35,954 nt of DNA, from NCBI GenBank assembly GCA_018812585.1, contig JAHJDJ010000299.1:1-35954 (forward strand), written 5' to 3'. The translations under genes and the position numbers were made by a program. How positions within the stretch are numbered: position 1 is the stretch's first letter; each line of letters starts with the position of its first letter. The notes under the pieces were generated by a model. It searched no databases. It saw only the letters and a list, made by a program, of their open reading frames with translations, and was not told where the DNA came from. The stretch is from a bacterium (lineage in GTDB: Bacteria > Electryoneota > B3-LCP). Below are positions 1-19,289 of this stretch, piece by piece.

Positions 1-680
1 ATGACATTGGGTCTGGTTCCAGCCAGCGACAAAGTGCTCAGCACCAGGTGAATCTGTGTCAGCAGTGTTGCCAGAGTGACCAGCATCATGGGCAGCCAGC
101 GCTGCCATTGTTTCAACCCGAAGGTGATTAAAAACGTCAAGCAGGCGCAACCCAGGAAGAATACAAAAAAGCAGTGTGTGAATTGTCCCAGTAAACTGAT
201 AATCAACAAGCCCGCCCACCAGTAAGGCGAAAACCGTTGGGTTTTTAAGATATCTGCGATGCACCAGATCGCAGCCAGCAGCAGCATACCAGCCAGGCTG
301 TAATGCCGCATCTCCTGAGACACCGCCACCAGGTAGGGAGAAATGGCGGCCAGCAGACATCCCAGCAAGGCAATGCGTTTTCCCCAGACATTCCGGCAGA
401 TCAGATAAACCAACAGCACCGATATCACACCATAAAGTACTGCTGGAAACCGCCCTGCAAATTCATTCCAGCCGAAAAGCTGTATGGACCAGTTAAAGGC
501 GTAGTAGTAAATCCGGGGAGCCTGGTATTTGACCTCACCCAGCGCCATCCACCAGGTAGAGCCTTCATCCGCCCAGAACGGCTTATGCCCTAATAATAAA
601 AGACGCAGCGCTAACGCCAGTATCAGCGTCAGCGCCAGGAGTAGACAATGCTGTCTGTCGATCTGATGTGATTTATCCAT
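1..680 (-). CDS. GT39/ArnT-like membrane glycosyltransferase, N-terminal part
   Basis: This gene is absent from the ORF track because it runs off the left edge without a stop. Translated from the ATG at 680 it gives about 226 residues: a short polar N-terminus, a first hydrophobic helix, then WADEGSTWW at about residues 36-44, followed by several further membrane segments. An acidic D-E pair in the first periplasmic loop after TM1 is the hallmark of GT-C glycosyltransferases of the GT39/PMT_2/ArnT type, which use polyprenyl-phosphate sugars on the periplasmic side. Its ATG directly follows the TAG stop of the dehydratase gene, so translation is probably coupled. By inference it transfers the sugar made by the upstream genes, which include a GtrB/ArnC-like partner. 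The acceptor is unknown. The C-terminal domain lies outside the window. Confidence 0.78.
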   Translation of the reverse strand, partial: MDKSHQIDRQHCLLLALTLILALALRLLLLGHKPFWADEGSTWWMALGEVKYQAPRIYYYAFNWSIQLFGWNEFAGRFPAVLYGVISVLLVYLICRNVWGKRIALLGCLLAAISPYLVAVSQEMRHYSLAGMLLLAAIWCIADILKTQRFSPYWWAGLLIISLLGQFTHCFFVFFLGCACLTFLITFGLKQWQRWLPMMLVTLATLLTQIHLVLSTLSLAGTRPNV

Positions 681-2201
681 CTATAGGAATGCCAAGAGGC
701 TTCTGGTTTCGACGTTTAAGAAATTATTGAATATTAAAAACTGCTTCAATTGGTACAGCGAAACCCAGAGATACATGGGCGGGGTCTCTATGGGGAAATG
801 TTCATCACCGGCCAGCAGCAGATTGCGATTCTCTTCCCGGTAGAATCGTCCGCCCTCTTCGGATTGCATGGTATCAAAGACGACGGAAGTGTGTGAGGGT
901 TCCAGCATTTCGGCGACGTACGGCGGCAGATTCGCCGGATCGTAACTACCGGTGATGCATTGCACGGTGGGCGCCATGCCCAGCAGATCGATGTTACCGC
1001 TTTCCATTTTCAGCTGCACCAGAAAATGGATCACGCCTTTGATCTCTTTGGTGATGAAACCGACAATGCCCGAATCGCGCTGTTTGATGATCGGCTGATC
1101 CCAGACGGGAACTTCGCGGCTGGTGGATTCAACTCGAGTGCCGATAATGGAGAAATAAAAGCCCTGCTTATGCGAAATCTCATGAGACGTTACCATCCAA
1201 TCATTGACGTCGTGCAGCGGAATCAGTCGGGTGTCCAGTTCTGCTTCGAATTTCTTACGGCTTAAGCCGCGCAGCAGCTCTTCGATACTGTGCTGCGCAG
1301 CAGCGTTGGCGCAGTCAGATGTCAGCAGTTTAATCTGATAATCGCTGATGGGATTCTGAACCAGAGGTGAGTTATTTAAACAGTCCTGCAGATCCGCCGC
1401 ATTGACCTGTTTCTTTACCGGTTTGTTTTCTGGACAGTAGCTGATCAGCGATATAACCGACCTGGCGTCCATATTGACCGTGTTATCCTTCAGCATCGAC
1501 CGTTTGATCTGTCCCAGCGTCATCCAGCGATAGTGCGGCTTCAGTGGAATAGCTTCATCTTCCGGAATTTGTATGATGATATTGCGATTCCGCTTGCGAT
1601 AAAAGCGCGCCCCCTGTTCAGACTGATGCTGATCGAAAAGTACCTTTACCTTCTTCCCATTCAGGAAATATTCTACGTATGGCGTGGGATCGCCTCCGTG
1701 CAGGCGCATATAATTTGAGCGCGTGGCCTGTACCGTCGGGGCCAATTGATAGGTATTGATATTGCCGGGTTCCGCTTTCGCCTGCATCAGGAAATAGAGT
1801 ATGCCGTCGATCTTCTTGGTGATGATCCCCAGCACCCCGATTTTCGGTTGGTCGATGATCGGCTGCGTCCACTTCCGTACCGGCCCGATGTTGGTGCTGA
1901 CTTCCAACCCGCGAATCGCAAAAAATCCGCCAGTAGCGTGAGCTAAATCGCCTGTATAGGGATCGAAATACCACTTGCGCAGGTCGATCAAAGAGATCTG
2001 TTCGACGTTGAAGTAATCATCGGTGTTCAATTCATTCAACCAGTCGCTGATTTCAGCGGTAGAGTTGAACGGATTGTGTTCAGTCATCGATGAGATTAAC
2101 AGATCAAGGTGTGTCGAAGCGCGGGGAAACCCGATAAGTTTCTCTAAACTACGCTTCAGTTTTGACGCTTCTTTTTGCATGTCAAGCGTGATGGTAAGCA
2201 T
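681..2201 (-). CDS. NDP-hexose 2,3-dehydratase (EvaA family)
   Basis: EvaA-type enzymes remove water from dTDP-4-keto-6-deoxyglucose to give a 3,4-diketo-2,6-dideoxy sugar, the entry step to 2-deoxy and amino-deoxy sugars. The 506-residue protein shows the internal duplication typical of the family. One half lies at about residues 75-225, with DQP, GVLGIITKKIDG, AEPGNI and APTVQ. The second half lies at about residues 330-475, with DQPIIK, GIVGFITKEIKG, ESGNI and APTVQ. Length fits the family, which is usually about 460-490 residues. The start at 2201 has GAAAGGAA a few bases upstream. The gene sits 23 bases after the aminotransferase gene. No 3-ketoreductase or other enzyme that usually follows this step is visible in the window, so the final sugar cannot be fixed. 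Confidence 0.9.
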   Translation of the reverse strand: MLTITLDMQKEASKLKRSLEKLIGFPRASTHLDLLISSMTEHNPFNSTAEISDWLNELNTDDYFNVEQISLIDLRKWYFDPYTGDLAHATGGFFAIRGLEVSTNIGPVRKWTQPIIDQPKIGVLGIITKKIDGILYFLMQAKAEPGNINTYQLAPTVQATRSNYMRLHGGDPTPYVEYFLNGKKVKVLFDQHQSEQGARFYRKRNRNIIIQIPEDEAIPLKPHYRWMTLGQIKRSMLKDNTVNMDARSVISLISYCPENKPVKKQVNAADLQDCLNNSPLVQNPISDYQIKLLTSDCANAAAQHSIEELLRGLSRKKFEAELDTRLIPLHDVNDWMVTSHEISHKQGFYFSIIGTRVESTSREVPVWDQPIIKQRDSGIVGFITKEIKGVIHFLVQLKMESGNIDLLGMAPTVQCITGSYDPANLPPYVAEMLEPSHTSVVFDTMQSEEGGRFYREENRNLLLAGDEHFPIETPPMYLWVSLYQLKQFLIFNNFLNVETRSLLAFL

Positions 2202-2224
2202 GGCGTGTTCCTTTCTTCAAATCA

Positions 2225-3370
2225 TCAGCATCCATAGAGTTCCTGTAGAACTGCGCGCATAGCCTCCAGACAGATTTCTAACCCTTCATTTGCGAGATCG
2301 GTATAAAATGGTAACCGCACGATTCTTTCGGATAATGCCTCGGTCATCGGCACCTCTTCTGGCTGATAACCGAATTTTCTCCCCATCACCGAAGAGTGCA
2401 ACGGCAGATAACCTCGGAAAGGGTAGACATCACGGTCACGACATAGTTTTAAGAATCTTTGTTGATTTTCGTCCGTATCGAAGATTACAAAATAAGCGTG
2501 ATGGTTTAATAAGACATTTTCTGGAATAATAGGTAAAGCGAGATAACCCTTATCAGCATACGGCTGGTATAAATCGTAGTAACCAGCAGTGATTCTACTG
2601 CGCAACGTTACGATTTCATCGACCGCTTCCAGTTGCGCGAATAGTACCGCCGCCAACAGATCCGCCAGCAGGAAACTGGACCCGATATCCACCCAGCCAT
2701 ATTTCGCGCGAAGTCCTTTGATGACCAGACTGCGGTCCGTGCCCTTCTCCTGCAGGAAAGCCGCCCGCTCAACCAAGGCGGGATCGTTGACAATCAGCGC
2801 GCCGCCCTCGCCACAGGACAGGTTTTTCGATTCATGGAAACTGAAAGCTGCCATCGTTGCATGAGTTCCACACGGGTTACCATTTAAATAGGAATGAAAA
2901 GATTGCGCCGCATCTTCTAAGACCATTAAATTATGCCGCTGTGCAATCGCTGAAATGACGTCCATATCACAAGGGATACCCATATAATCAATCGGCATGA
3001 TTAGACGCGTGCGCTCGGTGATCAGCCCTTCGATCAAAGTGACGTCAATATTCATCGTCTTGGGATCGACGTCGCAAAAGACAGGTTTCGCGCCGCGCAG
3101 AACGACGGCATTGGCTGTCGAACTGAAGGTCCACGAAGGCAAAATGACTTCATCGCCGGGAGACAGATCCGCCAGCATCGCTCCCATTTCCATCGCCGCG
3201 GTGCAGGAAGGCGTCAGGAAAACCTCACCAAAACCGTACTTCTCCTTCATCAGTCGGATGCACTTTTCCGTATACGTGCGGTTACCGCAGTGCGCTCGCG
3301 ATTGCAGTGCATCCCGCAGATACTCTTCTTCCCGACCGGATAAGTAGGGTTTGTTAAAGGGGATCGTCAT
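2225..3370 (-). CDS. wecE: dTDP-4-amino-4,6-dideoxygalactose transaminase-like (WecE/RffA)
   Basis: This is a DegT/DnrJ/EryC1/StrS-fold PLP aminotransferase that aminates a nucleotide keto-sugar, normally dTDP-4-keto-6-deoxyglucose, with glutamate as donor. The 381-residue protein follows E. coli WecE closely by memory: IPFNKP at the N-terminus, LTPSCTAAMEM, GDEVILPSWTF, an EDAAQ motif with the PLP-binding Asp near residue 153, and FHESKN with the Schiff-base Lys near 182. The ATG abuts the TAA of the preceding ligase gene (TTA at 3371), so the two are probably co-translated. In an operon with a 2,3-dehydratase the substrate could instead be a 2-deoxy sugar, with amination at C3 or C4. The family assignment is firm and the exact substrate is not. 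Confidence 0.87.
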   Translation of the reverse strand: MTIPFNKPYLSGREEEYLRDALQSRAHCGNRTYTEKCIRLMKEKYGFGEVFLTPSCTAAMEMGAMLADLSPGDEVILPSWTFSSTANAVVLRGAKPVFCDVDPKTMNIDVTLIEGLITERTRLIMPIDYMGIPCDMDVISAIAQRHNLMVLEDAAQSFHSYLNGNPCGTHATMAAFSFHESKNLSCGEGGALIVNDPALVERAAFLQEKGTDRSLVIKGLRAKYGWVDIGSSFLLADLLAAVLFAQLEAVDEIVTLRSRITAGYYDLYQPYADKGYLALPIIPENVLLNHHAYFVIFDTDENQQRFLKLCRDRDVYPFRGYLPLHSSVMGRKFGYQPEEVPMTEALSERIVRLPFYTDLANEGLEICLEAMRAVLQELYGC

Positions 3371-4672
3371 TTAAGCGTACTTGTGACCGATTTTTGACAG
3401 AATAAAGGGCGTTTTCCCACCCGGCCGCTTTTCCAGTTGAGGAACGATGCGAAAATCGATCTGCATTTCCTGGCCTAACCGTTTTCTTAAGTCGCGTTCC
3501 AGCGCGGTCTCTGATGCTTTGGTAAAAGATCCATCCACGACCAGATTCACGGTGAGATGGTCAATGGTATCCTGCACACACTGCGATACCACCACCCCTT
3601 GGCCGTTATCGATGGAATGCGACATAACCGCGCCCAAATAGCGGCCGTCCGGCGTTTCGATATAATCGCACTGCTTCCCCACAATCTCACTAACTGTGGT
3701 GAAGCGCCTGCCGCAAGCACACGGCTTCTGTTCTGGATCAAAGGTAACGTCATCCCGGGTGCGATAGCGTATGAGAGGCATGGCGTAATTATACAGGTTT
3801 GTCCCCACTAACTCCCCTCGACCAGCCTTCGACGCGTCGCTTCCGTCCGTATGCACAAATTCATGATAAGCGAAATCGTCGACCAGATGCAGGGAATGCT
3901 CTTCGCACTCCGCTATCATCGAAGCGCATTCATGCTGAGAATAGTAATTATACACCTCGCAGTTATAGGCTTTTTCCAAAGAGGCTCTTTTTTGATCCGA
4001 CAGAGTTTCACCGTACACGACCATCGCCTTGGGAGAGGGGATTTTCAGATCAGCTTCCGCTGCAAAACGGCTGAACACCAGCAGATCGAAGGGAAATCCC
4101 ATAAAGAACTGCGGTTCTTCCCGCTGCAACAGTTTGATAACCTCTATCGCCGTCTCGCGTTTAAATTGATTGGAATCATAGCGAAGCACTCTGAAGAGCG
4201 GCTTAGTTTCGTAAAAGCCATTTTTGAGGTAATAGCTTTGCAGACTGAACGTCTTCATCCAGAAGCGATACCCGCCCCATTGATAGGCGCGAACCAGAGT
4301 CGCCAGTTTGCCGGCTCTGGCGCCGCGATCCACGATAATGTGTAATGGAGTGCCTGTCGAACCACTGGTCGATTCCCAGATGATCCCGAACCGTCTGGCG
4401 TTGCCTGCAATCAATTCCTGCGCTCGAGTGCGCACCATTTCTTTGTCCAGCAGAGGGATTCGATGCATATCCTCTCTGCCACGGAAGGCTGCGGGATCGA
4501 ATCCGATCTCCTTAAATAACTGTCGATAGTAAGGGACCTGCTTCGCCGCATGACGAACCAACGTGCGCAGCTTTAAATCCTGATAATCACCGATGCGCTC
4601 CGCGCTCCATCGCTGACTGGCCGAAAAGAACAAGTAGCCGTGCATCAATTTAGGCAGCAAATCAATCATCAT
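3371..4672 (-). CDS. phenylacetate-CoA ligase-like adenylate-forming enzyme (PaaK/CapK family)
   Basis: Members of this family activate a carboxylic acid with ATP and often pass it to CoA. CapK-like members occur in capsule and O-antigen loci. The 433-residue protein has the N-terminal helical region of the family, the nucleotide-binding STSGSTGTPL at about residues 101-110, RYRTRDD at about 310, a Cys-rich CACGRRF segment, and GGKTPF near the C-terminus that may hold the catalytic Lys. Length matches the family at about 430 residues. It overlaps the end of the CitE-like gene by 11 bases, and its stop abuts the next ATG. With a CoA-ester lyase and a hydratase beside it, it may activate or recycle the acyl group placed on the amino sugar. 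The acid substrate is unknown. Confidence 0.82.
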   Translation of the reverse strand: MMIDLLPKLMHGYLFFSASQRWSAERIGDYQDLKLRTLVRHAAKQVPYYRQLFKEIGFDPAAFRGREDMHRIPLLDKEMVRTRAQELIAGNARRFGIIWESTSGSTGTPLHIIVDRGARAGKLATLVRAYQWGGYRFWMKTFSLQSYYLKNGFYETKPLFRVLRYDSNQFKRETAIEVIKLLQREEPQFFMGFPFDLLVFSRFAAEADLKIPSPKAMVVYGETLSDQKRASLEKAYNCEVYNYYSQHECASMIAECEEHSLHLVDDFAYHEFVHTDGSDASKAGRGELVGTNLYNYAMPLIRYRTRDDVTFDPEQKPCACGRRFTTVSEIVGKQCDYIETPDGRYLGAVMSHSIDNGQGVVVSQCVQDTIDHLTVNLVVDGSFTKASETALERDLRKRLGQEMQIDFRIVPQLEKRPGGKTPFILSKIGHKYA

Positions 4673-5573
4673 CCGCCTCCTTCTGTCGGCGGATTCTGGC
4701 AGCGCGCGCCAGAAGTTTTCGGGCGGCTCTAATCGTCGGCGGCGAGATGAATCTTCCGTCTACAACACAGACTCCCCGATTCTGTGCAGCACAACTTTCA
4801 GCTGCCCCCACAATCAAGGTGGCGTTGCGAATCTCCTCGTCGTTCGGTGTATAAACGTCATTGATGACAGTCACCTGATCCGGCGTCAGAGCGCACATGC
4901 CTGACATACCCAAAGTTAGTCCAATTTCCGCAAAAGACCGCAGATTACGCAAATCCTGAACTCTCACAAATGGCGTATCGATAGGTTGTATCCCTGCCGC
5001 GTGCGCGGCCATTGCGACCTGGGTGCGCGGCGCTAATAACGCTTCTTCTCCTGGACTGTGCCGCCCCTCTTGTTCCGCCAGATAATCCTCACAACCGAAG
5101 ATGACAGCCACAATTCTTGGCGAACAATCACAGATTCTGTTGGCATTCAAGATCCCACGCGGTGATTCTAAAATCGGAATGATTCGATAGGTCCCTCTTT
5201 TCCTGCGTCCCAGTATCTCGATCTGTTGGATTTCGCGATTCAGTTTCTCGATATCTTCAACGTCATTGGTGTTGGCATAAACAAATCCATCGAAAGGCAG
5301 TTCGCTGAAAGCGGTAATATCATCGCGCGTTAATCCGCTTTCAAAAGGATTGACCCGGATAAAGACTGTTTTTGATTTGTAATTATTCTCTTTTAATGCG
5401 TTCCGAACGCAATGGCGCGCCGTCTCTTTCTGCCCGGCGGGCACGGCGTCTTCTAAATCGAGGACAATTCCGTCCGCTTCTATTTCTGCAGCCCGCAGCA
5501 GCATCTTTTCGATGTGCCCCGGCACAAAGAGCAGCGATCTCAGGATCGAAAGATTGTCGTTTTCAGCGCTCAT
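4662..5573 (-). CDS. CitE-like HpcH/HpaI-family acyl-CoA lyase
   Basis: This is a TIM-barrel protein of the citrate lyase beta / malyl-CoA lyase superfamily, which cleaves or forms C-C bonds in CoA esters such as malyl-, methylmalyl- or citramalyl-CoA using Mg2+. In 303 residues it has LRSLLFVPG at the start, LDLEDAV near residue 38, the CoA-contacting Arg in FIRVNP (about 73), the metal ligand Glu in LESPRG (about 136), and the second ligand Asp in FGCEDY (about 163). All catalytic positions I can align are present. It lies 16 bases after the MaoC gene and overlaps the ligase gene by 11 bases. MaoC plus CitE-like pairs are known from itaconate, mesaconate and methylaspartate-cycle pathways, but here the pair is inside a sugar operon. 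A malate-like or citramalate-like acyl group is an inference. Confidence 0.86.
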   Translation of the reverse strand: MSAENDNLSILRSLLFVPGHIEKMLLRAAEIEADGIVLDLEDAVPAGQKETARHCVRNALKENNYKSKTVFIRVNPFESGLTRDDITAFSELPFDGFVYANTNDVEDIEKLNREIQQIEILGRRKRGTYRIIPILESPRGILNANRICDCSPRIVAVIFGCEDYLAEQEGRHSPGEEALLAPRTQVAMAAHAAGIQPIDTPFVRVQDLRNLRSFAEIGLTLGMSGMCALTPDQVTVINDVYTPNDEEIRNATLIVGAAESCAAQNRGVCVVDGRFISPPTIRAARKLLARAARIRRQKEADDD

Positions 5574-5589
5574 GTCAGTTTCTCTTTGA

Positions 5590-6051
5590 CTAAGGTAGTT
5601 CTTTCGGTATCAGTATTTTTCGCCGTAATGACAGAACCGTATCCCCGTTCTGGTTGTAGGCCTTCGTTATGACCGTAACCACACCACGGTCCGGTTTTGT
5701 CTTTGAAAGTTTTACCTCGACAATCCGGGTGCGTGCCCGGATCGTATCGCCGATGAAGACCGGATGATGGTGAGTGATCTTCTCAAACTCAAGATTGGCG
5801 ATGCAGGCGCCGGAAATATCGGGAACAGACATCCCCACAGCCAAACTTAGCACGTATGTCCCCACCACCACGATTTTCCCGTGCTGCTGTCTTGCTGCAT
5901 ATTCCACATCCGAATGCAAAGGATGATGGTTCATGGTCAGCATACAGAACTGGTTGTTGTCACTTTCCGTGATCGTTTTATGAGGCCAGTGCTCAAATTC
6001 CTGACCGGGATGAAAGTCACTCAACGTTCGTTTGTAAGCTTCATTCGACAT
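5590..6051 (-). CDS. MaoC-like hotdog hydratase (itaconyl/mesaconyl-CoA hydratase type)
   Basis: MaoC-fold enzymes add water to enoyl-CoA esters. This 153-residue protein is a single hotdog domain with LTMNHHPLHSD at about residues 38-48, where many R-hydratases have SGDxNPxHxD. The general-base Asp position appears to be Asn, while the His is kept. The LTMN form, the later VFIGDTI and the RPDRG-like KPDRG segment resemble, by memory, the itaconyl/mesaconyl-CoA hydratase branch. It overlaps the acyltransferase gene by 11 bases and precedes the CitE-like lyase, so substrate channelling from lyase to hydratase or back is plausible. It may be a hydratase for a short branched or dicarboxylic acyl-CoA. 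The function within polysaccharide synthesis is inferred from context only. Confidence 0.83.
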   Translation of the reverse strand: MSNEAYKRTLSDFHPGQEFEHWPHKTITESDNNQFCMLTMNHHPLHSDVEYAARQQHGKIVVVGTYVLSLAVGMSVPDISGACIANLEFEKITHHHPVFIGDTIRARTRIVEVKLSKTKPDRGVVTVITKAYNQNGDTVLSLRRKILIPKELP

Positions 6052-6730
6052 CGTTAAACTCCTTTACTGCCCGCCGCAGGAATTTCGCCGGGACGCCCGC
6101 CCAAATCTCATCTTCTGCGATGTCATTCAAGAGCACCGCGCCCATCGCCACCGTCGACCGGTTTGCCAGGATCAATCCTTCTCGGATAGTAGCGTTCAAT
6201 CCGATATGCACGCCGTCGCCGAATTGCAGATATGACCCTAAACAGGCCTGTGCGGCAATATGGCAGAGTTTTCCGATTTTGGAGTTATGCCCCACTGTGG
6301 CGTTGACCATCACCACTGTTCCCAGCCCTAACCGGGCTCCCGACGAGATGGAAGCTTGCGGCATAATGACACACCCCGGACTGATTTCAGTATTGCCTGC
6401 GACGTAAGAGGCGGGGTGTATAAACGTTGCCAACCGGTCTCGCGGGATGTTCAGGCCTTCGAACATGGCCATGCGCTTATCCTGTCCATCGATGCGAAAA
6501 ATTGCATAGATGAAATAGTATCCCTGTTGGATAAATGTCTGAACATCGGCCAATCGCCCCAGCACAGGATAACCTTCGATCTCTTCGCCGATGTCATGGC
6601 GGTCGTTCAAATATCCTGCCATCTGCCAACTGTTATCACCCCAGGCATTGGCCTCATCGATAGCTGCCGCGACAACAGAACCGTTGCCGGTGCCTCCGAT
6701 GATGATCACTTTTTTAGGTTCAGTCGTCAT
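6041..6730 (-). CDS. NeuD/PglD-like sugar O/N-acyltransferase
   Basis: These trimeric enzymes have a small Rossmann-like N-terminal domain and a left-handed beta-helix built from hexapeptide repeats. They acylate amino sugars (PglD, on a UDP-4-amino sugar) or sialic acid (NeuD). The 229-residue protein begins with VIIIGGTGNG at about residues 8-17. Hexapeptide repeats run from about residue 100 to 205, with VGHNSKIG carrying the likely catalytic His near 148, and the protein ends with WAGVPAKFLR, a standard ending of the helix. It overlaps the glycosyltransferase gene by 11 bases upstream and the MaoC gene by 11 bases downstream. Next to a 4-aminotransferase its most likely job is N-acylation of the new amino group, perhaps with an acyl-CoA made by the neighbouring CoA enzymes. 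Confidence 0.88.
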   Translation of the reverse strand: MTTEPKKVIIIGGTGNGSVVAAAIDEANAWGDNSWQMAGYLNDRHDIGEEIEGYPVLGRLADVQTFIQQGYYFIYAIFRIDGQDKRMAMFEGLNIPRDRLATFIHPASYVAGNTEISPGCVIMPQASISSGARLGLGTVVMVNATVGHNSKIGKLCHIAAQACLGSYLQFGDGVHIGLNATIREGLILANRSTVAMGAVLLNDIAEDEIWAGVPAKFLRRAVKEFNDVE

Positions 6731-7730
6731 GATCGCCTCGATATATTTTGCGGATGACGTAATTGGGCCTGTCTTTGGTCTCGATATAGATGCGCCCTAA
6801 GTATTCACCGATGATGCCCATGAAGATGAAATTCATCCCCAGCAGGAAAAGCATAATGACAACGATGGAAGTCCAACCCGGCACCACTTTCATCAGGAAC
6901 AGCTTCTGAACCGTGAAATAGATCGCCAGGAAAAGGCTGACAAAGCCTAGAATTATACCCAGAATACTGGCTATCCGGATGGGAAAGAGTGAGTAGGAGA
7001 AAATACGATCCAGCGATAACTTGAGCATTTTCACGAAGGTATAACCGCTGGAACCAGCAAATCTTTCGTCGCGCACCAGATCGACGACGGAATAGTCAAA
7101 CCCCATCCAGCAGAGCAGGCTCAAGGGAGTTGCCGTCTTCTCCGCCGACTTTAAAAGTTCATCTACAATCTCACGCTGCATGGCGCGGAAAACGCGGGTT
7201 CGGGGAACGACCTGAATACTGGTAATTTTATTAGCAATTTTATTGAAAAGCTGTGACGCCCAGACTTTTAAACCTCCATCCCTGCGATCGGACCAGCGCG
7301 CGATGGCCATCTGAGTTTTGTCGCGTTCCATTGCTGTAATCAGCAGGGGAATGTCTTCAGGACGGTCCTGCAGATCAGAGTCCATCAGGATAATCAGGTC
7401 ACCGCGCGCTTCTCCCAAACCCGCCGAAATGGCGTTAGGCTGGCCGAAATTTCGGGTCAACTCTATCACCTGGATGGCGGGATCAGAAATCTGTAAAGAG
7501 AGTAAAACAGATACAGACTTGTCCGTGCTGCCATCGTCGATGAAGATAATTTCACTTTGAACTGCGAGGTCGTCTAAAACTGCTCGCAGTCTACGGTGCA
7601 ATTCGGGCAGGACTTCGGCATCGTTATAGACTGGAATGATGACGGAAATCTGTTTTTTACCTTTTTGTGAGGTCATGTTAACACTGCTTTGGACGTTCTG
7701 CGCGCCTGACTCATGCCGGTGCATTGACAT
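6720..7730 (-). CDS. GtrB/ArnC-like polyprenyl-phosphate glycosyltransferase (GT2)
   Basis: This GT2 enzyme should move a sugar from a nucleotide to undecaprenyl phosphate on the cytoplasmic face. The 336-residue protein has ISVIIPVYND at about residues 28-37, a DDGSTD motif, MDSDLQD as the metal-binding DxD region, and two strong C-terminal membrane segments (about residues 235-265 and 270-305), the layout of GtrB, ArnC and DPM1. The first Met gives an unusual polar extension of about 18 residues; an internal Met at 7676 (MTSQKG) is an alternative start, and neither has a strong ribosome site. It overlaps the WbqC gene by 20 bases. Together with the GT39-like gene at the left edge it forms the carrier-loading and periplasmic-transfer pair seen in the arn and gtr systems. 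Confidence 0.9.
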   Translation of the reverse strand: MSMHRHESGAQNVQSSVNMTSQKGKKQISVIIPVYNDAEVLPELHRRLRAVLDDLAVQSEIIFIDDGSTDKSVSVLLSLQISDPAIQVIELTRNFGQPNAISAGLGEARGDLIILMDSDLQDRPEDIPLLITAMERDKTQMAIARWSDRRDGGLKVWASQLFNKIANKITSIQVVPRTRVFRAMQREIVDELLKSAEKTATPLSLLCWMGFDYSVVDLVRDERFAGSSGYTFVKMLKLSLDRIFSYSLFPIRIASILGIILGFVSLFLAIYFTVQKLFLMKVVPGWTSIVVIMLFLLGMNFIFMGIIGEYLGRIYIETKDRPNYVIRKIYRGDHDD

Positions 7731-8427
7731 CGTCAGGAAAACTCTTCATGTACGACGGCGCTGCCCTGCCGGTGTTAAAGAGGAGATCGAGGATGCTGAC
7801 TTCGTGTACAAAGGGGGGATAAGCTTGAGGATATTCGGGATAGCCTGTATAATCCATATAGCGAAGTTCGATACCCGCTTCACGGAACAGCTCTTCCTGA
7901 ATATAATTCTGCGCCGCAGGTCCGGTCAGATAAACGTCCGCTCCGACCTGTTCGCAGAGGTCAACCAGCCTTTCTGTCTTCCCCGGCAGTAAAGAATAGT
8001 TCGTCGACCACGAAATGGGAGTGCTGATGTTTAATATAGCACAGATGGTCTTAATAAAGCGAAGGTTTATCTGGCTGATATACGTATCAGCGCAGGAAGA
8101 ATAGAGGGCCTCGAAGATCTCTTTATATTGTTTAAAGTGCGCGGCCTGTGTATAGTTCCTCTGAATCGTTTCCCAATGATTAAGAGACCAGTCAGCATTG
8201 ACGATGCGCGTATCTTTGATGGACTGCTGGCAGCGTCCCTTGACCTGCACCGGAATGGTCAGCCAGTGCAGCCCCTGCGGCGTCTTGATCTGATTACGAT
8301 TGATCCAAGACCGCTTGGTGTATTGCATATCGTCGAATAAAATAAATTGATCGACGCTGTTGATTATATCGAAATATCCTTTCCAGGGGATATAAAACGA
8401 TTGGATGACGGCTAACGACTTTGACAT
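7711..8427 (-). CDS. WbqC-like family protein
   Basis: WbqC-like proteins (PF08889) occur in O-antigen and capsule loci. I do not know a settled biochemical role. The sequence has the family's opening AVIQSFYIPWKGYFDII, then FDDMQYTKRSWINRNQI, LTIPV, a YLTGPA segment near residue 180 and a C-terminal S-I-L-D-L-L-F motif. The ORF track starts at a TTG (8448). I prefer the ATG at 8427, which starts MSKSLAVIQ, because an AGGTG ribosome-like site lies 11 bases upstream and family members begin close to this point. That gives 238 residues. It is the first gene of the minus-strand operon, about 27 bases after the predicted transcription start. Confidence 0.85.
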   Translation of the reverse strand: MSKSLAVIQSFYIPWKGYFDIINSVDQFILFDDMQYTKRSWINRNQIKTPQGLHWLTIPVQVKGRCQQSIKDTRIVNADWSLNHWETIQRNYTQAAHFKQYKEIFEALYSSCADTYISQINLRFIKTICAILNISTPISWSTNYSLLPGKTERLVDLCEQVGADVYLTGPAAQNYIQEELFREAGIELRYMDYTGYPEYPQAYPPFVHEVSILDLLFNTGRAAPSYMKSFPDDVNAPA

Positions 8428-8655: not shown

Positions 8656-9069
8656 ATGTCAAAGAGCGAATGGCTGAGTCCGCCAGGTGACTTTACCGCT
8701 TTAATGGGCGAATATTCGCACGGAATCCGTATTCCGCTACCCGGCGCAGACCTGATTTTTCTGACCGGACAGAAGGCTATGGATGCCGCAGGAAACGTCG
8801 TCGCGCCTGGGGATCCGGAAAAGCAGACGGAATATGTATTCAATAGTATATGCAAAATTCTGGCCGAAGCTGACGCCACCATCGACGATGTGGTAAAAGC
8901 GCAAATTTATGTATTAGGTATGAAGGATTTTCACTCTATCTCGAAAATCCGCAACAAATACTTTAAAGCAGCCAAGCCAGTTTCGACCATGGTAGAGGTA
9001 ACCGGGCTGTCGAAACCGGGATGTCTGGTGGAGATCGCAGTAACGGCTGTGAAATATCACGATCAGTAG
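8656..9069 (+). CDS. RidA/YjgF/UK114 family protein lacking the usual catalytic Arg
   Basis: RidA proteins form trimers and hydrolyse reactive enamines or imines released by PLP enzymes. This 137-residue protein has the family's FLTGQ near residue 36, a VVKAQIYV segment near 79-86 and a C-terminal VEV...LVEIAVTAV strand pair. In E. coli RidA the catalytic Arg lies in the PARS segment just before VEV. Here the aligned residue is Ser110 in PVST, so classical deaminase activity is doubtful and a Rid subfamily with another role is possible. The ATG is preceded by CAGGAGA. It is the first gene of a four-gene plus-strand operon with an aminotransferase, which fits a role near PLP chemistry. The fold is certain and the activity is not. 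Confidence 0.9.
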   Translation: MSKSEWLSPPGDFTALMGEYSHGIRIPLPGADLIFLTGQKAMDAAGNVVAPGDPEKQTEYVFNSICKILAEADATIDDVVKAQIYVLGMKDFHSISKIRNKYFKAAKPVSTMVEVTGLSKPGCLVEIAVTAVKYHDQ

Positions 9070-9076
9070 GTGAGCA

Positions 9077-10105
9077 ATGATTGGGGATCGACCTAATAAA
9101 TTCGCCTATCTGCACAAACCGGGCGCGCTGGAGATCATCGCAGAGCCGCTGCCTGCAGATCTTCCCGGGCCGGATTACGTTCGCCTGAAGCTGGCTTATT
9201 GCGGGCTTTGCGGGTCCGATCTGGCTTTCATCCAAGGTCGAAGAGGCGTCGTTTACCCCCGCTCTCTGGGCCATGAACAGATCGGCAAAGTAATCCAAAA
9301 AGGCGGCAATGTCAACGAAATAGAGGTCGGAAGCTGGGTCGCGGTCGATCCCAACACACGGTGCGGCGAATGCCAATACTGCCTGGCCGGAGCTTCCCAT
9401 CACTGCGAACGCAGCGAAGAGACGCGCTTCCATCCCCGCGGTCTGGCGAAATATCAGGACCTCCACCATTCTTATCTCCATCCACTCCCGATATTCAATC
9501 CCATCTATATAGGGGCTCTGGCAGAGCCGCTCTCCTGCGCTTTGCACGCCATCGCACGCGCCCAAATCAGCCCTGGCGACAACGTCCTCATATTAGGCGC
9601 CGGCAGCATGGGATCGATGGTTGCCTTTGCTCTCCTGAACAAATTTGACAGTCTGGCGATAACGATGCATGATACCATTCCGCAACGAGTTGACCGCTTC
9701 ATTCGTCATTTCCCTGGCAGAGTGAATAATTATGTTGTTGATGATATTCAGGACGAATATACTGCCATTTTTGAAGCAACCGGCGATCCTGAGGCGCTTC
9801 ATATCGCTACACAGAGCGTTGCGAAGATAGGCAAAATCGTGGTCATCAGCCGCTATCGCAACAGGGAAAATATCACGCTGCCAACCACATTGTGCCAGCA
9901 GGAAATCGACGTCAGATTTTCTCACCTTAACGGTCCTGGCGAAACCATAGATGAAGCCCTCGCGCTCTTAAAGCAGAATGGGGCGCAGGATTATCTTGAA
10001 CTCGTCGAAATTCACTCCCTAGATCAGATACACACCGCCATTCAGCGTATGCAGAGTTCATCGTATTGTAAAACCATGATAGAAATTGATGGTTCAATGG
10101 AATAG
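9077..10105 (+). CDS. zinc-dependent medium-chain alcohol/polyol dehydrogenase
   Basis: This is a 342-residue MDR-family oxidoreductase that interconverts an alcohol and a ketone or aldehyde with NAD(P). The catalytic zinc residues are visible in CGLCGSD (Cys near 45) and GHEQ (His near 70). The structural zinc loop is complete as CGECQYCLAGASHHC, spacing C-x2-C-x2-C-x7-C. The nucleotide-binding glycine motif is GAGSMGS near residue 175. The overall form resembles sorbitol or threonine dehydrogenases. It starts 7 bases after the RidA gene, with AGGTGAG upstream, and ends 20 bases before kdsA. Beside kdsA and an aminotransferase gene, it could oxidise a hydroxyl of a Kdo-type sugar before amination, though a free polyol substrate is equally possible. 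Confidence 0.87.
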   Translation: MIGDRPNKFAYLHKPGALEIIAEPLPADLPGPDYVRLKLAYCGLCGSDLAFIQGRRGVVYPRSLGHEQIGKVIQKGGNVNEIEVGSWVAVDPNTRCGECQYCLAGASHHCERSEETRFHPRGLAKYQDLHHSYLHPLPIFNPIYIGALAEPLSCALHAIARAQISPGDNVLILGAGSMGSMVAFALLNKFDSLAITMHDTIPQRVDRFIRHFPGRVNNYVVDDIQDEYTAIFEATGDPEALHIATQSVAKIGKIVVISRYRNRENITLPTTLCQQEIDVRFSHLNGPGETIDEALALLKQNGAQDYLELVEIHSLDQIHTAIQRMQSSSYCKTMIEIDGSME

Positions 10106-10125: not shown

Positions 10126-10977
10126 ATGCTAACCTCGATTCTGAACGGAGAACCCTTCCTGATTGCCGGCCCTTGTGCCCTGGAAACTGAAGAGATCACA
10201 CTTCAAGTGGCGGCGCGCCTGAAAACGCTCTCAACCTCTCTGGAAATTCCCATCGTATTCAAGGGATCTTATGCCAAATCCAACCGCACCAGCGAAAGTT
10301 CCTTTCACGGAATCGGCCTGGATTTAGGACTGGAATGGCTGAAGCAGGTTAAACAGCAGTTTGGCTTACCGGTCACCTCCGACGTGCACGAACTGGACGA
10401 AATACAGCCTGCCGCAGAAGTTCTGGATATTATTCAGATTCCCTCTCTGCTCTGTAAAAATACAAATCTATTGCATGCCGCGGGCGAAACCGGGAAAATA
10501 GTCAATATCAAGAAGGGACATTTCGTCACTGCTGAAGATATGCGCTGCTCGCTGGAAAAAGTAACCTCTCGCGGTAATGATAAGATTATGATCACCGAGC
10601 GTGGCACGCAGTTCGGCTACGGCGACATGATCGTCGATTTTCGCTCCATTGCTACATTGAAATCGTTCGGGTTTCCGGTGATATTCGACGCCTCGCATTC
10701 CGTTCGCAACACCTCCAGGAGATCGGAAGACGCCGCGGGTGGAACGCCGCAATCAATACCTCTGCTGACACGCTGCGCGGCGGCAGCCGGCGCCGATGGA
10801 CTCTTCGTAGAGACACATCCATCTCCACAGGATGCTTTGTGCGATGCCGTCTCTTCCTATCCCTTAATCGAAGTAGAGAAACTGGTGCGAACCTTCCTCG
10901 ATTTTCAGAAGTTTGCCCGCCAGCAGGATCGGCTAAATTCCGAGGAGTCGGCTGCAACCTATATTATAAAACGTTAA
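10126..10977 (+). CDS. kdsA: 3-deoxy-8-phosphooctulonate synthase (KdsA)
   Basis: KdsA condenses phosphoenolpyruvate with arabinose 5-phosphate to give Kdo 8-phosphate, the precursor of the inner-core LPS sugar Kdo. The 283-residue protein has the family's AGPC (Cys near 17), FKGSYAKSNRTS, GLPVTSDVHE, CKNTNLL, ITERGTQFGY, DASHSVR and ETHPSP. The Cys in AGPC, instead of the Asn of E. coli KdsA, together with the His of DASH and the Glu of VETHP, indicates the metal-dependent class. A clear AGAAGGAA site precedes the ATG. No kdsB, kdsC or kdsD is nearby. Co-transcription with a dehydrogenase and an aminotransferase is unusual for kdsA and suggests a modified Kdo or a second, dedicated copy. Confidence 0.95.
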   Translation: MLTSILNGEPFLIAGPCALETEEITLQVAARLKTLSTSLEIPIVFKGSYAKSNRTSESSFHGIGLDLGLEWLKQVKQQFGLPVTSDVHELDEIQPAAEVLDIIQIPSLLCKNTNLLHAAGETGKIVNIKKGHFVTAEDMRCSLEKVTSRGNDKIMITERGTQFGYGDMIVDFRSIATLKSFGFPVIFDASHSVRNTSRRSEDAAGGTPQSIPLLTRCAAAAGADGLFVETHPSPQDALCDAVSSYPLIEVEKLVRTFLDFQKFARQQDRLNSEESAATYIIKR

Positions 10978-10989
10978 GCTGCCACTAAA

Positions 10990-12078
10990 ATGGAAAAATA
11001 TCTGAATTTTTCACCTGGCGCAGCGGATGCCGTCGATGTGTGGAGCCGTCACCTGGATAAACCGGTTCTATATCCCCGCGAAGGGAGCATAAAGCCGCTG
11101 CTGACATCTATCAAGCATAAACTGCAGCGCTTCTGCCAGACCGATGCGCAGGTTTTACTGCTCTCAACAGCCGGAACCGGCGCGCTGGAATGCGTCATCG
11201 CCAGCCTGCCGCAAGACAAGCGGATACTGGTCATCCAGAACGGCACCTTCGGAGAGAGACTGGCTGAAATCGCTCAACTTCACCAGAGAGACCTGACCCT
11301 TTTCGACTTGGGATGGGGAATTCCCTTCACCAGCGAATATGAAGCGGAACTGGAACGGATCTGCCATGAAGTACACATCGACGTGATTTTGGCGGTTCAC
11401 CTGGAAACGTCGACGACGTTGGTAAATGACGTCTCAGCTATCGGACGCGTCGCGCAAGCAGTGGGAGCGATCAGCGTTATCGACGGTATCTCAGCCATAG
11501 GATCGGTCGAATTGCGACTATTTGAATGGGGCGTCGATTGCTATGTGGCCAGCTCCTATAAAGCCCTGCTCTGCCCGGCAGGTTTGAGCCTGGTATTCGC
11601 CAACGACCGCTTCATTTCATCCGCACAAAACCGTTGGTCGTATTATTTCGATATGCAAAGATTAGCAAGCAAAGCCGAAAAAGACAGTTACCTCTGGACG
11701 CCGAGCGTTCTAAGTCTCTACTGCCTGGAAGACGTTCTAACCGGCATACTGCGTGAAACCAAAGGAAAATATTTCGAAAGAATCGAATCGAATGCAACCC
11801 TCTTCAGAGAGAAGCTAACGTCAGCAGGCTTCACTCTGATGGGTACGGAGGAAACCCTAAGTCCCTGCTTCACCGCTATCGAATTGCAGGATGATAACGC
11901 TGATCTATGGCTGCAAAGGCTGAAAGCCGACCACGGCATCGTCATCGGCAAGGGGATGGGCGAAACGGCTGACCAGTTACTGCGCATCGGTCATTACCCC
12001 CACCGCACGAAGGAAGAATTGCTGCATCTGGCTGAGGCTTTAACGAAGTGCCATAGGCATCCGGCCACTGACGGATAA
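10990..12078 (+). CDS. class V PLP aminotransferase
   Basis: This is a fold-type I aminotransferase of the serine-pyruvate / alanine-glyoxylate / 2-aminoethylphosphonate group, 362 residues long. Visible landmarks are STAGTGALE (PLP phosphate-binding, about 59-67), HLETST (about 137), the PLP-ring Asp in IDGISAIG (about 165) and SSYKALLCPAGL with the Schiff-base Lys near 191. It starts 12 bases after kdsA, with no strong ribosome site. It is the last gene of the RidA-dehydrogenase-KdsA operon. The substrate is not evident. Acting after the dehydrogenase, it could aminate a keto or aldehyde sugar acid. A role in phosphonate or glyoxylate metabolism is possible but has no support in the neighbourhood. 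Confidence 0.88.
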   Translation: MEKYLNFSPGAADAVDVWSRHLDKPVLYPREGSIKPLLTSIKHKLQRFCQTDAQVLLLSTAGTGALECVIASLPQDKRILVIQNGTFGERLAEIAQLHQRDLTLFDLGWGIPFTSEYEAELERICHEVHIDVILAVHLETSTTLVNDVSAIGRVAQAVGAISVIDGISAIGSVELRLFEWGVDCYVASSYKALLCPAGLSLVFANDRFISSAQNRWSYYFDMQRLASKAEKDSYLWTPSVLSLYCLEDVLTGILRETKGKYFERIESNATLFREKLTSAGFTLMGTEETLSPCFTAIELQDDNADLWLQRLKADHGIVIGKGMGETADQLLRIGHYPHRTKEELLHLAEALTKCHRHPATDG

Positions 12079-12307
12079 TCTTTGCTACTTACCGCGACTT
12101 TATATTTCGTAATGTAATGGCAATCCTCGGCTTCTCCCTTCTATAGCTATGGCATCCAAAAAGCAATTAACCTCTTCTTTGGCACAATAATTGTGAAATA
12201 TTAAATATACTTAGATTCTAGGAAGGAAACAGTGTAAATTATGGACAATCATGAAATAAATGCACGATACTGATAATATTATCATTACTGTTGAAAGGAG
12301 GAATCCC

Positions 12308-14083
12308 ATGAAGGAATTCTTCAAGCTGGTCACTATATTACTACCCCTGACAGCATTCTGCCAGATAGGATGGATTGAACATCAAGTTAGTTCTTCCTAC
12401 AATGGTGCATTTGGTATTCATACAGCCGATGTCGATGGCGATGGCGATACCGATCTAGTCTCGGCGTCAGTCGACGATGATGAGATTACTTGGTGGGAAA
12501 ATATCGACGATTTCAATTTCATTCAACATGTCATAGATCCATTCTTCGATCATGCACATAAAGCCTACGGTTTTGATATTGATCAGGATAACGATATGGA
12601 CGTTTTAGGGACTGCCTTTTATGGCGATGAAATCGCCTGGTATGCAAACGATGGTCAACAGAATTTTACCAAGTACTCCATTCGTACAGGGTTTGATGGT
12701 GCCCGTGATGCTTATGCAGCTGATATCGATGGTGATACCGATCTAGACGTTGTCGGCTGTGCTCAATACGATCAACTCCTATGTTGGTGGGAAAATGATG
12801 GGTATCAGAATTTCATCGAACATTTGATCACGAATAACACAGTGGCTCCTCATTCTATATATCCTATCGATGTCGATAGTGATGATGATATGGACATTGT
12901 CTTCGGCGATAGAGATGCAGATGAGGTCTCTTGGTTTGAAAATGATGGCTCTCAAATCTTCACCCGGCATATTATCGATCTGGAATTTACAGACACCTGG
13001 GATGTCTTCGCGATTGACTTGGACCTGGATAATGATATCGACATTCTGGGCGCTGCACAACATGAAAATGATGTTTGGTGGTGGGAAAATGATGGCGAGG
13101 AGAACTTCCAACGGCATATCATTCCGGGAGAGTCGACGGTTGGAAGCCGTAATGTTCATGCTGTCGATCTGAATAACGACGGAAATCTTGACATAGTGGC
13201 GGCTTTTGATAATTGTAATGCAATCTTCTACTATGAAAATGACGGACAGCAGAACTTTACTGAATACTGCATGACAAATTATTTCAACGACGCCTTCGAT
13301 CTTTGGCCTGGAGATTTCAATGACGATGGCAACCTCGATATCGCTGGTACCGCATATGGTGGGGATGCCGTCTCTGTCTGGGAAAATGTTCCTATCGAAC
13401 TGGAATTAATCTTGGAACCTTACTTCCCGCCTGTTCAAATTCCTCCACAAGGCGGCAGTTTTGACTTCGGATTGGTGATTCGCAATCATAGCCAATTCAA
13501 CCTTAATTTCAACGGTTGGATAGAAATCGAATTACCGGGGGGTGCCTCAATACATACGATTTCGCTTCGCAATGATATGATGGTCTCTGCAAACGACTCG
13601 CTGGTCTGGTGGGACATGCTCCAAAATGTGCCTGCTAACGCACCGAGTGGCCTCTACCAATATATAGCAAAAATCGGCACTCATCCCTATTCAGTTTGGC
13701 AGCAAGATCAGTTTCAAGTTGACAAAACGGGCGCCTTCGTGAATAGTGAACGCGATTGGGATTTCACACTGACGGGATGGATCACCCAGGTTGAAAATCC
13801 GTATGAGTCATTAAAAATTGGTGAATACGGTCTGATAACCGCCAATCCCAATCCCTTCAATCCGACAACGATACTTAGTTACGAGTTGCGAGTTGCGGGT
13901 TCCGTGTTGTTGACTGTCTATGACATTCAGGGGCGCGAAGCAGCCAGATTGGTCAATGGCTGGCAGGAGGCAGGAATACACAAAGTAACTTTCGATGGAG
14001 CGGATTTATCATCTGGAATCTATTTCGTGCGTTTGCAGGCGGGGGAATTCACTGCCCTGCAGAAGCTGGTGTTGTTGAAGTAG
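12308..14083 (+). CDS. secreted FG-GAP/VCBS repeat protein with type IX sorting tail
   Basis: The ORF track starts at 12260, but the ATG at 12308 has AAAGGAGG just upstream and opens a signal peptide (MKEFFKLVTILLPLTAFCQ), giving 591 residues. About seven repeats of 48-51 residues follow, each with an Asp-rich calcium-loop-like core such as DVDGDGDTD or DLNNDGNLD and an ending like WWENDGxQNF. This is the FG-GAP/VCBS pattern expected to form a beta-propeller. A beta-sandwich-like region follows at about residues 375-475, and the last 80 residues are a Por secretion tail with NPNPFNPTT, VYDIQGR and LSSGIYFVRL. It should be exported by a type IX system and held at or released from the surface. 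The ligand is unknown. Confidence 0.88.
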   Translation: MKEFFKLVTILLPLTAFCQIGWIEHQVSSSYNGAFGIHTADVDGDGDTDLVSASVDDDEITWWENIDDFNFIQHVIDPFFDHAHKAYGFDIDQDNDMDVLGTAFYGDEIAWYANDGQQNFTKYSIRTGFDGARDAYAADIDGDTDLDVVGCAQYDQLLCWWENDGYQNFIEHLITNNTVAPHSIYPIDVDSDDDMDIVFGDRDADEVSWFENDGSQIFTRHIIDLEFTDTWDVFAIDLDLDNDIDILGAAQHENDVWWWENDGEENFQRHIIPGESTVGSRNVHAVDLNNDGNLDIVAAFDNCNAIFYYENDGQQNFTEYCMTNYFNDAFDLWPGDFNDDGNLDIAGTAYGGDAVSVWENVPIELELILEPYFPPVQIPPQGGSFDFGLVIRNHSQFNLNFNGWIEIELPGGASIHTISLRNDMMVSANDSLVWWDMLQNVPANAPSGLYQYIAKIGTHPYSVWQQDQFQVDKTGAFVNSERDWDFTLTGWITQVENPYESLKIGEYGLITANPNPFNPTTILSYELRVAGSVLLTVYDIQGREAARLVNGWQEAGIHKVTFDGADLSSGIYFVRLQAGEFTALQKLVLLK

Positions 14084-16631: not shown

Positions 16632-19289
16632 ATGATTAAATCCCACTTTAAATATCCGCTGATCCTGCTCAGCATCTCCTTTCTATTCAGCTCTGCTCAA
16701 GCTCAATCCTCCCCAGACCCCGACTCTTCTCTTGTCGATACCACGTCAATCAGTCAACCGAATGCAATATTTTCCTCCGACTCGGTCGAAACGGCGGTAG
16801 ATACGGTGGCGACCGAATCGTCTGACCTGGATACAACCATTGCTTACACCGCCAAATCAATCGAATTTTTTGTTAAGGATAAGCGCACGATTTTAAACGG
16901 TGACGCGCAATTTACCTACCAGGGAATGACCCTGAAAGCGGAAAAGATCACCGTCGCCTGGGATGAAGATCTGATCATCGCCGAGGGGGTTCCGGATACC
17001 CTCTGGTCAGACAGCACTCATACTGTTATCGATACGATCATGACACGGGGTCGTCCGGTCTTTTCTGAAGGCGGCCAGGATATGAGCGGTGAGCGGATGA
17101 CTTACCACCTGAAATCGAAGAAAGGCAAAATATCCGGCGGGCAGACGTCATTCGATGAAGGGTATTACTGGGGCGCTTCTATCAAGAAAGAGACCGATGA
17201 CATTCTTTATGTCGGTCCGGGCAGTTTTACGACCTGCGATAAAGCGGAACCGCATTTCTGCTTCAAGTCGCAGCGTATGATGATGAAAAAGGATGACAAA
17301 GTAGTCGCCAAACCGGTCGTTCTGCATTTCGGAGAAGTTCCCGTGGCAGTACTGCCCTACGGCGTGTTCCCGGCCCGCAAAGGCCGCCATTCAGGGATCA
17401 TCATCCCCACGTATGGTGAAACCGGAGCGCAGGGGCGGTTCATCCAAAGGCTGGGCTATTACTGGGTGTTGAACGATTATGCCGACGTGACCACTTCGAT
17501 GGATTATTATGAAGAATCAGGTTTTCTGTTTCACGGCAGTAGCCGTTATAACCGGCGTTACCTCTTTTCCGGCACGATGAACGGATCGTATATAAATCAG
17601 CATTTTGGAGGAACGGCGAAGCGGCGCTGGGAACTGCAATGGGGGCACGATCAGATCATCACACCCAACACCAGGCTGCGCGTCGATGCGAATATCATCA
17701 GTGACGGCAGCTATTACCAGGATTATTCACTGAACCTGAATGAACAGTTGACTCAAAAACTCTACTCCAACGCGACTTTGAGCCATTCCTGGCCGGGCAC
17801 TAAAAATTCCATGTCTGTAAACCTAAGTCACGAACAGAATCTGCAGACCGAAGAGGTCACTCAGTCGCTGCCGCGTTTAAGCTTTCGCCGCGGTCAGTCT
17901 GCGATCATTCCCCTGCCTAAGAAAGCGCCCGGTGACACGACGGAAATCGAATCAGAATGGTATCATAGCCTCTACTATTCGTACTCAGGCGAGTTGTGGC
18001 AGCGCCGCATATTGGATCAAAACATAGCCAGCGGGGACACATCACTAGTGCAGGATCTGCGCACCGCGGCGAAGCATTCCATCAATTTCAGCAGTCCGCA
18101 GGATATTTTCAAGTACTTCAGCCTGAATCCGTCACTAAGCTACCGCGAAGACTGGTTCGGTGAAGCGCTGGATTACAGTAACAATCCTGCGGGGGAGAAA
18201 GTATCCGGCTTCTATTCGCGTCGCACTTTCAGCTCAGGCTTGAGTCTGTCGACAAAAATCTATGGATTGTGGTCAGAACCTTTCCGAAACGTGCAGGGCA
18301 TTCGCCATACCATGACGCCTACCCTCTCGCTGAATTTCACTCCTGATTTTTCAGATCCGGAATGGGGCTACTTCCAGACCGTCACCACAGACAGCACGTC
18401 GGATCGCAAAGATCGCTATTACGGCTCTCTTTATGGCGGCACTCCGAAGGGGAAAACGCTGGGATTGGGTTTTCGCCTGTCCAACTTGTTTCAGATGAAA
18501 ACAGGAAAGGGTGAGGAGGAAAAGAAGCTGGATCTGTTCAACCTCGATTTCTCTACCAGTTACAATATCGTTGCTGACAGCCTGAATTTCACTCCGCTGT
18601 CTTCTTCCTTTCGCGCTTCGCCGATATCCGGCAAATCGTCTGTAGGTCCCCTGAGCCGGCTCTCATTTGATGTCAAAACGACGCATAGTTTCTATAAGTA
18701 TGGCAGTAATGGCCTATATGACGAATACTATTTCGCACCAGAAGAAGGCAAAATCCTGCGTCTGACCAAGTTCGACATCTCAGCCAATTCGAGTTTCTCG
18801 CTGGGAACGCTGCGTCATACCCGCGAATCGGTCTTAGAAAAAGATACCAAAGATTCACAATTCGGGATCGCCTCAGAAGAATTAGAAGCGGATACGATGC
18901 TTGCAGAACAAACCGCTTTGCCAAAGGTTGATGAGGGTTGGTTCATGGGTCAGGTGCCCTGGGATCTGAAATTATCACTGCACTACACTTCCAACCGCAA
19001 TAATCCCAACGATTTCTCCGAAACATTCTGGTTGAATGCCAGCATCGACGCGTCCTTGACACGCTACTGGCAGGTCAGCTATAATACCCGCTTTGATTTG
19101 ATTGACCATAAGGTCGTCTCAGCGGGATTGACCATTTACCGTGATATGCACTGCTGGGAAGGCCGCATCACCTGGAATCCACTGGGCGTCGGACAGGGGT
19201 TCTTCCTGAAGATCAATATCAAGGCGTCACAACTGAAGGACGTTAAAGTCGAAAAGAAGCAGGGTCAGGGCACGTTTATGGGATTTTAG
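16632..19289 (+). CDS. lptD: LptD-like LPS assembly outer-membrane protein
   Basis: LptD forms the outer-membrane barrel that inserts LPS at the cell surface together with LptE. The 885-residue protein has a signal peptide ending near AQAQ (residue 25), a low-complexity Ser/Thr/Asp stretch to about 70, an OstA/LptA-like jelly-roll domain (about residues 75-240, with LNGDAQFTYQG and SGERMTY), then the conserved entry to the barrel, VPVAVLPYGVFP and RHSGIIIPTYG, and a long beta-barrel to the C-terminus. It resembles the LptD-like proteins of Bacteroidota and relatives. The typical LptD disulfide cysteines are not obvious, apart from Cys in FTTCDKAEPHFC. The gene stands alone between the radical SAM and OPT genes. 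It supports the presence of LPS in this organism. Confidence 0.87.
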   Translation: MIKSHFKYPLILLSISFLFSSAQAQSSPDPDSSLVDTTSISQPNAIFSSDSVETAVDTVATESSDLDTTIAYTAKSIEFFVKDKRTILNGDAQFTYQGMTLKAEKITVAWDEDLIIAEGVPDTLWSDSTHTVIDTIMTRGRPVFSEGGQDMSGERMTYHLKSKKGKISGGQTSFDEGYYWGASIKKETDDILYVGPGSFTTCDKAEPHFCFKSQRMMMKKDDKVVAKPVVLHFGEVPVAVLPYGVFPARKGRHSGIIIPTYGETGAQGRFIQRLGYYWVLNDYADVTTSMDYYEESGFLFHGSSRYNRRYLFSGTMNGSYINQHFGGTAKRRWELQWGHDQIITPNTRLRVDANIISDGSYYQDYSLNLNEQLTQKLYSNATLSHSWPGTKNSMSVNLSHEQNLQTEEVTQSLPRLSFRRGQSAIIPLPKKAPGDTTEIESEWYHSLYYSYSGELWQRRILDQNIASGDTSLVQDLRTAAKHSINFSSPQDIFKYFSLNPSLSYREDWFGEALDYSNNPAGEKVSGFYSRRTFSSGLSLSTKIYGLWSEPFRNVQGIRHTMTPTLSLNFTPDFSDPEWGYFQTVTTDSTSDRKDRYYGSLYGGTPKGKTLGLGFRLSNLFQMKTGKGEEEKKLDLFNLDFSTSYNIVADSLNFTPLSSSFRASPISGKSSVGPLSRLSFDVKTTHSFYKYGSNGLYDEYYFAPEEGKILRLTKFDISANSSFSLGTLRHTRESVLEKDTKDSQFGIASEELEADTMLAEQTALPKVDEGWFMGQVPWDLKLSLHYTSNRNNPNDFSETFWLNASIDASLTRYWQVSYNTRFDLIDHKVVSAGLTIYRDMHCWEGRITWNPLGVGQGFFLKINIKASQLKDVKVEKKQGQGTFMGF

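Follow-up and report, generated by a model that had tools for sequence, protein, structure and literature searches.

A predicted sugar N-acylation operon that pairs a MaoC-fold hydratase with a CitE-like protein lacking the lid aspartate

Rare N-acyl groups on surface sugars influence serotype and recognition, and the enzymes that make the corresponding acids are mostly unassigned. Pathways to anthrose and to other N-acylated dideoxyamino sugars combine amination of the sugar, a coenzyme A (CoA)-bound acid and N-acyl transfer. Polysaccharides with N-malyl groups are known in Pseudoalteromonas rubra ATCC 29570, Shewanella algae BrY and Flavobacterium columnare ATCC 43622. MaoC-fold and CitE-like enzymes are paired in itaconate degradation (RipB/RipC, also called Ich/Ccl), where the genes sit with CoA transferases, and the CitE side extends to the malyl-CoA lyases (Mcl, CLYBL). 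In Flavobacterium psychrophilum, the R-group genes wfpC-G specify a type II fatty-acid-like route, bound to acyl carrier protein, that leads to a 3,5-dihydroxyhexanoyl group (PMC6519341). Here, we analysed a window of 35 954 nucleotides from a bacterium of the Electryoneota (B3-LCP), which comprises one entire contig (JAHJDJ010000299.1; C163 among the 383 contigs of assembly GCA_018812585.1, hereafter G000). The window carries a predicted operon in which a MaoC–CitE pair stands among sugar genes and N-acyltransferases. This provides a recurring gene module to connect with rare N-acyl groups, and raises the question of what a malyl-CoA-lyase-like enzyme does once the lid Asp, reported for nearly all of its superfamily, is lost.

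Nine minus-strand genes lie within positions 1–8427, in the order WbqC, GtrB, NeuD, MaoC, CitE-like, ligase, aminotransferase, 2,3-dehydratase and GT39. Their spacing ranges from 20-base overlaps to 23-base gaps, so we read them as a single operon. All genes named in a first-pass annotation of the sequence were found there; the leading gene, WbqC (7711–8427; PF08889, Pfam 264.8 bits), had gone unmentioned. We searched for the CitE-like protein in 61 genomes and compared wide stretches around the matches. The eight genes that run from WbqC through the dehydratase have the same order in five of the six genomes of the family (G000, G001, G002, G003 and G005), which is therefore not a product of chance; the sixth, G004, yielded no match to the marker genes searched (MaoC, CitE-like and dehydratase). 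Two of these operons contain an extra open reading frame (ORF), between MaoC and CitE in G002 and between ligase and aminotransferase in G003, each encoding an FG-GAP protein that bears a secretion-type tail. WbqC adjoins GtrB/NeuD/MaoC in G000–G003, G005, G015 and G037, is close to them in G061, and adjoins CitE/NeuD in G432. A search of viral contigs for WbqC relatives to use in structure modelling returned none.

The CitE-like protein (4662–5573, minus strand) matches HpcH_HpaI and, by alignment and structural model, has what is expected of the CitE-like superfamily: the Mg2+ ligands, Arg76, and a TIM barrel that carries a C-terminal lid. The model (mean pLDDT, predicted local distance difference test, 89.5) has malyl-CoA lyase and human CLYBL as its nearest solved folds. 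Like the RipB/RipC and Mcl/CLYBL systems, the pair encoded here has the same folds, MaoC–CitE pairing and Mg2+/Arg residues; unlike them, it lacks the lid Asp, the equivalent of MclR Asp299 being Ser277 (in the motif RFISPP). Zarzycki and Kerfeld reported this Asp across the whole superfamily, except for the group of malyl-CoA thioesterases, which has a Glu (PMC3832036). All 22 CitEs from sugar loci have Ser, Ala or Gly as the lid residue (21 of 21 aligned, plus L118), and each of the 21 comparators has Asp (20 of 20 aligned, plus L119), while six further active-site residues are unchanged across all 46 aligned sequences. The lid-altered proteins form a single clade (support 97/99) in a tree built with the lid columns omitted. 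Because the lid Asp cannot serve as base, we expect the reaction to differ from that of malyl- and citramalyl-CoA lyases, whereas the binding of Mg2+ and of an oxo- or hydroxy-acid is probably retained. Cys161 and His172 were considered as a universal substitute base and rejected, since neither is invariant beyond the first eleven sequences. A second CitE-like protein of approximately 270 residues, with Glu at the lid position, is encoded directly before MaoC in five loci (L099, L100, L101, L102 and L103).

Its partner, the MaoC-fold protein (5590–6051, minus strand; Pfam MaoC and MC_hydratase), is assigned to the mesaconyl/itaconyl-CoA hydratase group, whose characteristic His and motif it shares: the predicted active-site His46 is invariant in 11 sequences. 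Within its TMNxxPxH motif stands an Asn where hydratases usually have Asp. This Asn is common to homologues in CoA-metabolism gene clusters, and an Asn aligns with it in domain two of beta-methylmalyl-CoA dehydratase (solved structure 8hgn), which makes a hydratase role plausible; for the first of these reasons we rejected the substitution as a mark of inactivity. In G021, MaoC is broken across two frames (L077, 7369–7811) with a transposase/integrase-like ORF nearby, as judged by eye, and an intact 2,3-dehydratase is kept on a different contig.

The first-pass annotation had called these two proteins an itaconyl/citramalyl-type hydratase–lyase pair. The hydratase half stands as plausible. The itaconyl-type label does not, as MaoC scores 130 bits against the RipB/Ich family (NCBIfam NF038241, cut-off 340) and the same profile has a single match over the whole genome, at 129.5 bits. 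Nor does the lyase half, given the missing lid Asp and a score of 145 bits for the CitE-like protein against RipC/Ccl (NF038242, cut-off 375), and we suggest that the lyase label be dropped until the protein has been assayed.

MaoC, a CitE without the lid Asp and an N-acyltransferase together form a portable module, present at 22 loci in several phyla. In 20 of these, CitE follows MaoC immediately and on the same strand; of the other two, G002 has the intervening ORF, and at G133 the contig ends. In 20 loci, too, an N-acyltransferase is next to the pair, of the NeuD type or, in three loci, of the AAC(3) type; in the remaining two, NeuD lies two genes away (G432) or a hexapeptide transferase does (G210). 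DegT or FdtA sugar genes are near the pair in many of the 22 loci, as are RmlA/RmlB-like genes, judged by eye. Whereas RipB/RipC-type genes sit with CoA transferases, the pair described here sits with sugar genes and N-acyltransferases. A profile (A1) was made from eleven sugar-locus CitEs; with it, the group scores approximately 320–485 bits, compared with up to approximately 275 bits for other CitEs. In the phylum to which G061 belongs, four of 80 genomes have members; in that of G062 (an Ignavibacteria record), seven of 346 do, and in that of G063 (Desulfobulbus) there is one true member among 345 genomes. A second match in the last phylum, G832 (273 bits), serves as a negative control: it keeps the lid Asp, and neither MaoC nor the sugar genes were matched in its stretch. 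Searches of plasmids and phages returned, where annotated, only homologues from CoA metabolism or citrate lyase, and no publication that places MaoC/CitE in polysaccharide loci came up in searches of the literature.

The remaining genes of the operon, all on the minus strand, supply candidates for making, acylating and delivering a sugar. The EvaA-like nucleoside diphosphate (NDP)-hexose 2,3-dehydratase (681–2201) contains the two Hexose_dehydrat repeats typical of EvaA (Pfam 457 bits), matches the EvaA structure 4j7g (E 1.1e-96), and is present in six of 39 genomes of the phylum. The DegT/WecE-like aminotransferase (2225–3370) exceeds the cut-off of the NCBIfam equivalog PRK11706 (455 versus 375 bits), which places it with the WecE-type enzymes predicted to act at C4, and narrowly misses TIGR02379 (418 versus 435). 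The PaaK/CapK-like adenylate-forming acyl-CoA ligase (3371–4672) matches phenylacetate-CoA ligase structures and has intact TSGSTGTP, YRTRD and GGK motifs. The NeuD/PglD/VioB-like N-acyltransferase (6041–6730) falls just below the TIGR03570 cut-off (155.5 versus 160.8 bits), matches the solved VioB and perosamine N-acetyltransferase, and keeps a His that is present at the aligned position of VioB and of a solved pilin glycosylation protein. For delivery there is a GtrB/ArnC-like GT2 enzyme (6720–7730), a putative polyprenyl-phosphate glycosyltransferase with DDGS and DSDLQ motifs, and a polytopic GT39/PMT_2-like glycosyltransferase (3–680; PMT_2 57 bits), the 3' part of which is lost at the contig end; GT39 homologues occupy the equivalent position in G001, G002 and G005. 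Both also have counterparts in ArnC/ArnT delivery, but by its profile score of 195 bits the GT2 is related to, and not a member of, the undecaprenyl-phosphate 4-amino-4-deoxy-N-formyl-L-arabinose (Ara4FN) transferase family (PRK10714, cut-off 529), and no genes for uridine diphosphate 4-amino-4-deoxy-L-arabinose (UDP-Ara4N) were seen in the operon.

These observations can be joined into a pathway whose substrates, acyl group, order of steps and acceptor we infer from gene content. The dehydratase and aminotransferase would act on an NDP-4-keto-6-deoxyhexose, while the ligase, MaoC and CitE-like enzyme would furnish a short acid as its CoA ester, the likeliest candidates being a hydroxydicarboxylyl (malyl or citramalyl) group and the corresponding enoyl group. 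NeuD would transfer this acid to the sugar amine, GtrB would attach the sugar to polyprenyl phosphate, for transfer by GT39 to a surface acceptor. That the operon serves an N-acylated deoxyamino sugar, as first proposed, is well supported by the gene order and by the recurrence of the core module in surface-sugar loci of several phyla: the proposal would have foundered had the gene order been confined to this locus, and at 22 loci MaoC–CitE is kept together with an N-acyltransferase, of either the NeuD or the AAC(3) type. Delivery through polyprenyl phosphate is likewise probable. The hydroxydicarboxylic acyl group is best kept as a working hypothesis; one may reasonably guess at malyl or citramalyl by analogy, because amide-linked N-(4-malyl) amino sugars are known from marine O-polysaccharides (PMC3210612). 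Of the analogy drawn earlier with anthrose, the logic of aminotransferase, acyltransferase and acyl-CoA-modifying enzyme holds and nothing beyond it, since here these are joined by a MaoC–CitE-like pair, a PaaK-like ligase and a 2,3-dehydratase. The wfpC-G locus is similar in having a PglD-homologous acyltransferase and dedicated acyl-making genes within an O-antigen locus (PMC6519341).

Taken whole, the proposal that the operon builds and delivers a deoxyamino sugar with an unusual N-acyl group, hydroxydicarboxylyl most likely, by way of an altered CitE reaction has, in our judgement, about an even chance of being correct. Several points weigh against it: the operon has no 3-ketoreductase to act after the 2,3-dehydratase; only some of the loci have a ligase close to the pair, which leaves the origin of the CoA ester variable or uncertain; and no invariant residue replaces the lid Asp, position 161 being Cys, Ser or Gly and His172 having one exception. 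The loss of the lid Asp also argues against a simple synthesis of (citra)malyl-CoA by CitE. Such a synthesis, a classic lyase run in reverse to join acetyl-CoA with glyoxylate or pyruvate, with MaoC alongside and another residue in place of the lid Asp, would fit the intact Mg2+ and Arg sites, the fold match, the malyl amides of O-polysaccharides and the class V aminotransferase of a divergent cassette (below), which is akin to glyoxylate-using enzymes; we consider it unlikely. A bolder form of the altered reaction is conceivable, though less likely than not: the clade without the lid Asp may perform C–C chemistry new to the superfamily, for example with a preformed enolate or with Mg2+-bound pyruvate as nucleophile, and so make a new class of N-acyl group on surface amino sugars, with the MaoC–CitE–acyltransferase genes spread between phyla as a portable module.

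CitE might instead have ceased to be a C–C enzyme and act on the CoA ester, as a thioesterase, an epimerase or a binding partner of MaoC; MaoC alone would then determine which acyl group is made, through hydration of an enoyl-CoA from the ligase or from metabolism. The lost lid base, the malyl-CoA thioesterase branch of the superfamily with its altered lid residue (Glu) and the five loci with a Glu-lid CitE-like protein beside MaoC all speak for this, but a mere partner would have no need of the metal and Arg sites for an oxo- or hydroxy-acid that are kept without exception, and we hold it, too, to be improbable. Least credible is a mere passenger role in the operon, with the two enzymes contributing to the sugar itself or to some unrelated intermediate of catabolism. 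Homologous MaoC and CitE genes do occur in CoA-metabolism clusters elsewhere, yet in several phyla the pair stands time and again beside N-acyltransferases, which belong to two unrelated folds, and the lid loss follows the sugar context; this makes such a role very hard to sustain.

Divergent from the operon lies a plus-strand cassette that begins with a RidA-family protein (8656–9069; Pfam) and continues with a Zn-type medium-chain dehydrogenase (9077–10105; ADH_N, the nearest NCBIfam model being scyllo-inosose dehydrogenase, far under its cut-off), a second 3-deoxy-D-manno-octulosonate 8-phosphate (KDO-8-P) synthase-like enzyme (KdsA2, 10126–10977) and a class V aminotransferase (AGXT/PhnW/BhcA-like, 10990–12078). 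In G000, G003, G005 and G015 the cassette and the operon are linked; G001 and G002 have the cassette on contigs other than that of the operon. The aldehyde-pocket motif of KdsA2 is KNT, compared with RQT or RQS in KDO-8-P synthases, and a separate KdsA-type copy is present in G000 (G000:C272), G001, G003 and G005; in G002 and the 77%-complete G015, the only match besides KdsA2 is DAHP (3-deoxy-D-arabino-heptulosonate 7-phosphate)-synthase-like. A housekeeping role for KdsA2 was rejected for G000, given the other copy and the differing pocket motif. The class V aminotransferase is confined to the six cassette genomes among the 39 of the phylum, all six of which carry MaoC (found in 12 of 39), a co-occurrence with a hypergeometric probability of 2.8e-4 when kinship is ignored. 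Our guess is that the cassette supplies an oxo-acid or amino acid to the pathway.

FG-GAP proteins with a Por_Secre_tail are encoded beside the cassette (12260–14083) and inside the operon of two relatives (L027, 6877–9069; L028, 5143–7371), and might be glycan acceptors or chance neighbours. A subtilisin-like protease with a Por_Secre_tail domain is encoded at 32470–34665. Similar class I methyltransferase-like genes are convergent with GT39 in two relatives (L030, 135–950; L027, 18549–19361), that of L030 belonging to the LCM family by Pfam. Downstream in the window, an LptD-like outer-membrane lipopolysaccharide (LPS) assembly protein (16632–19289) fits an LPS-making host.
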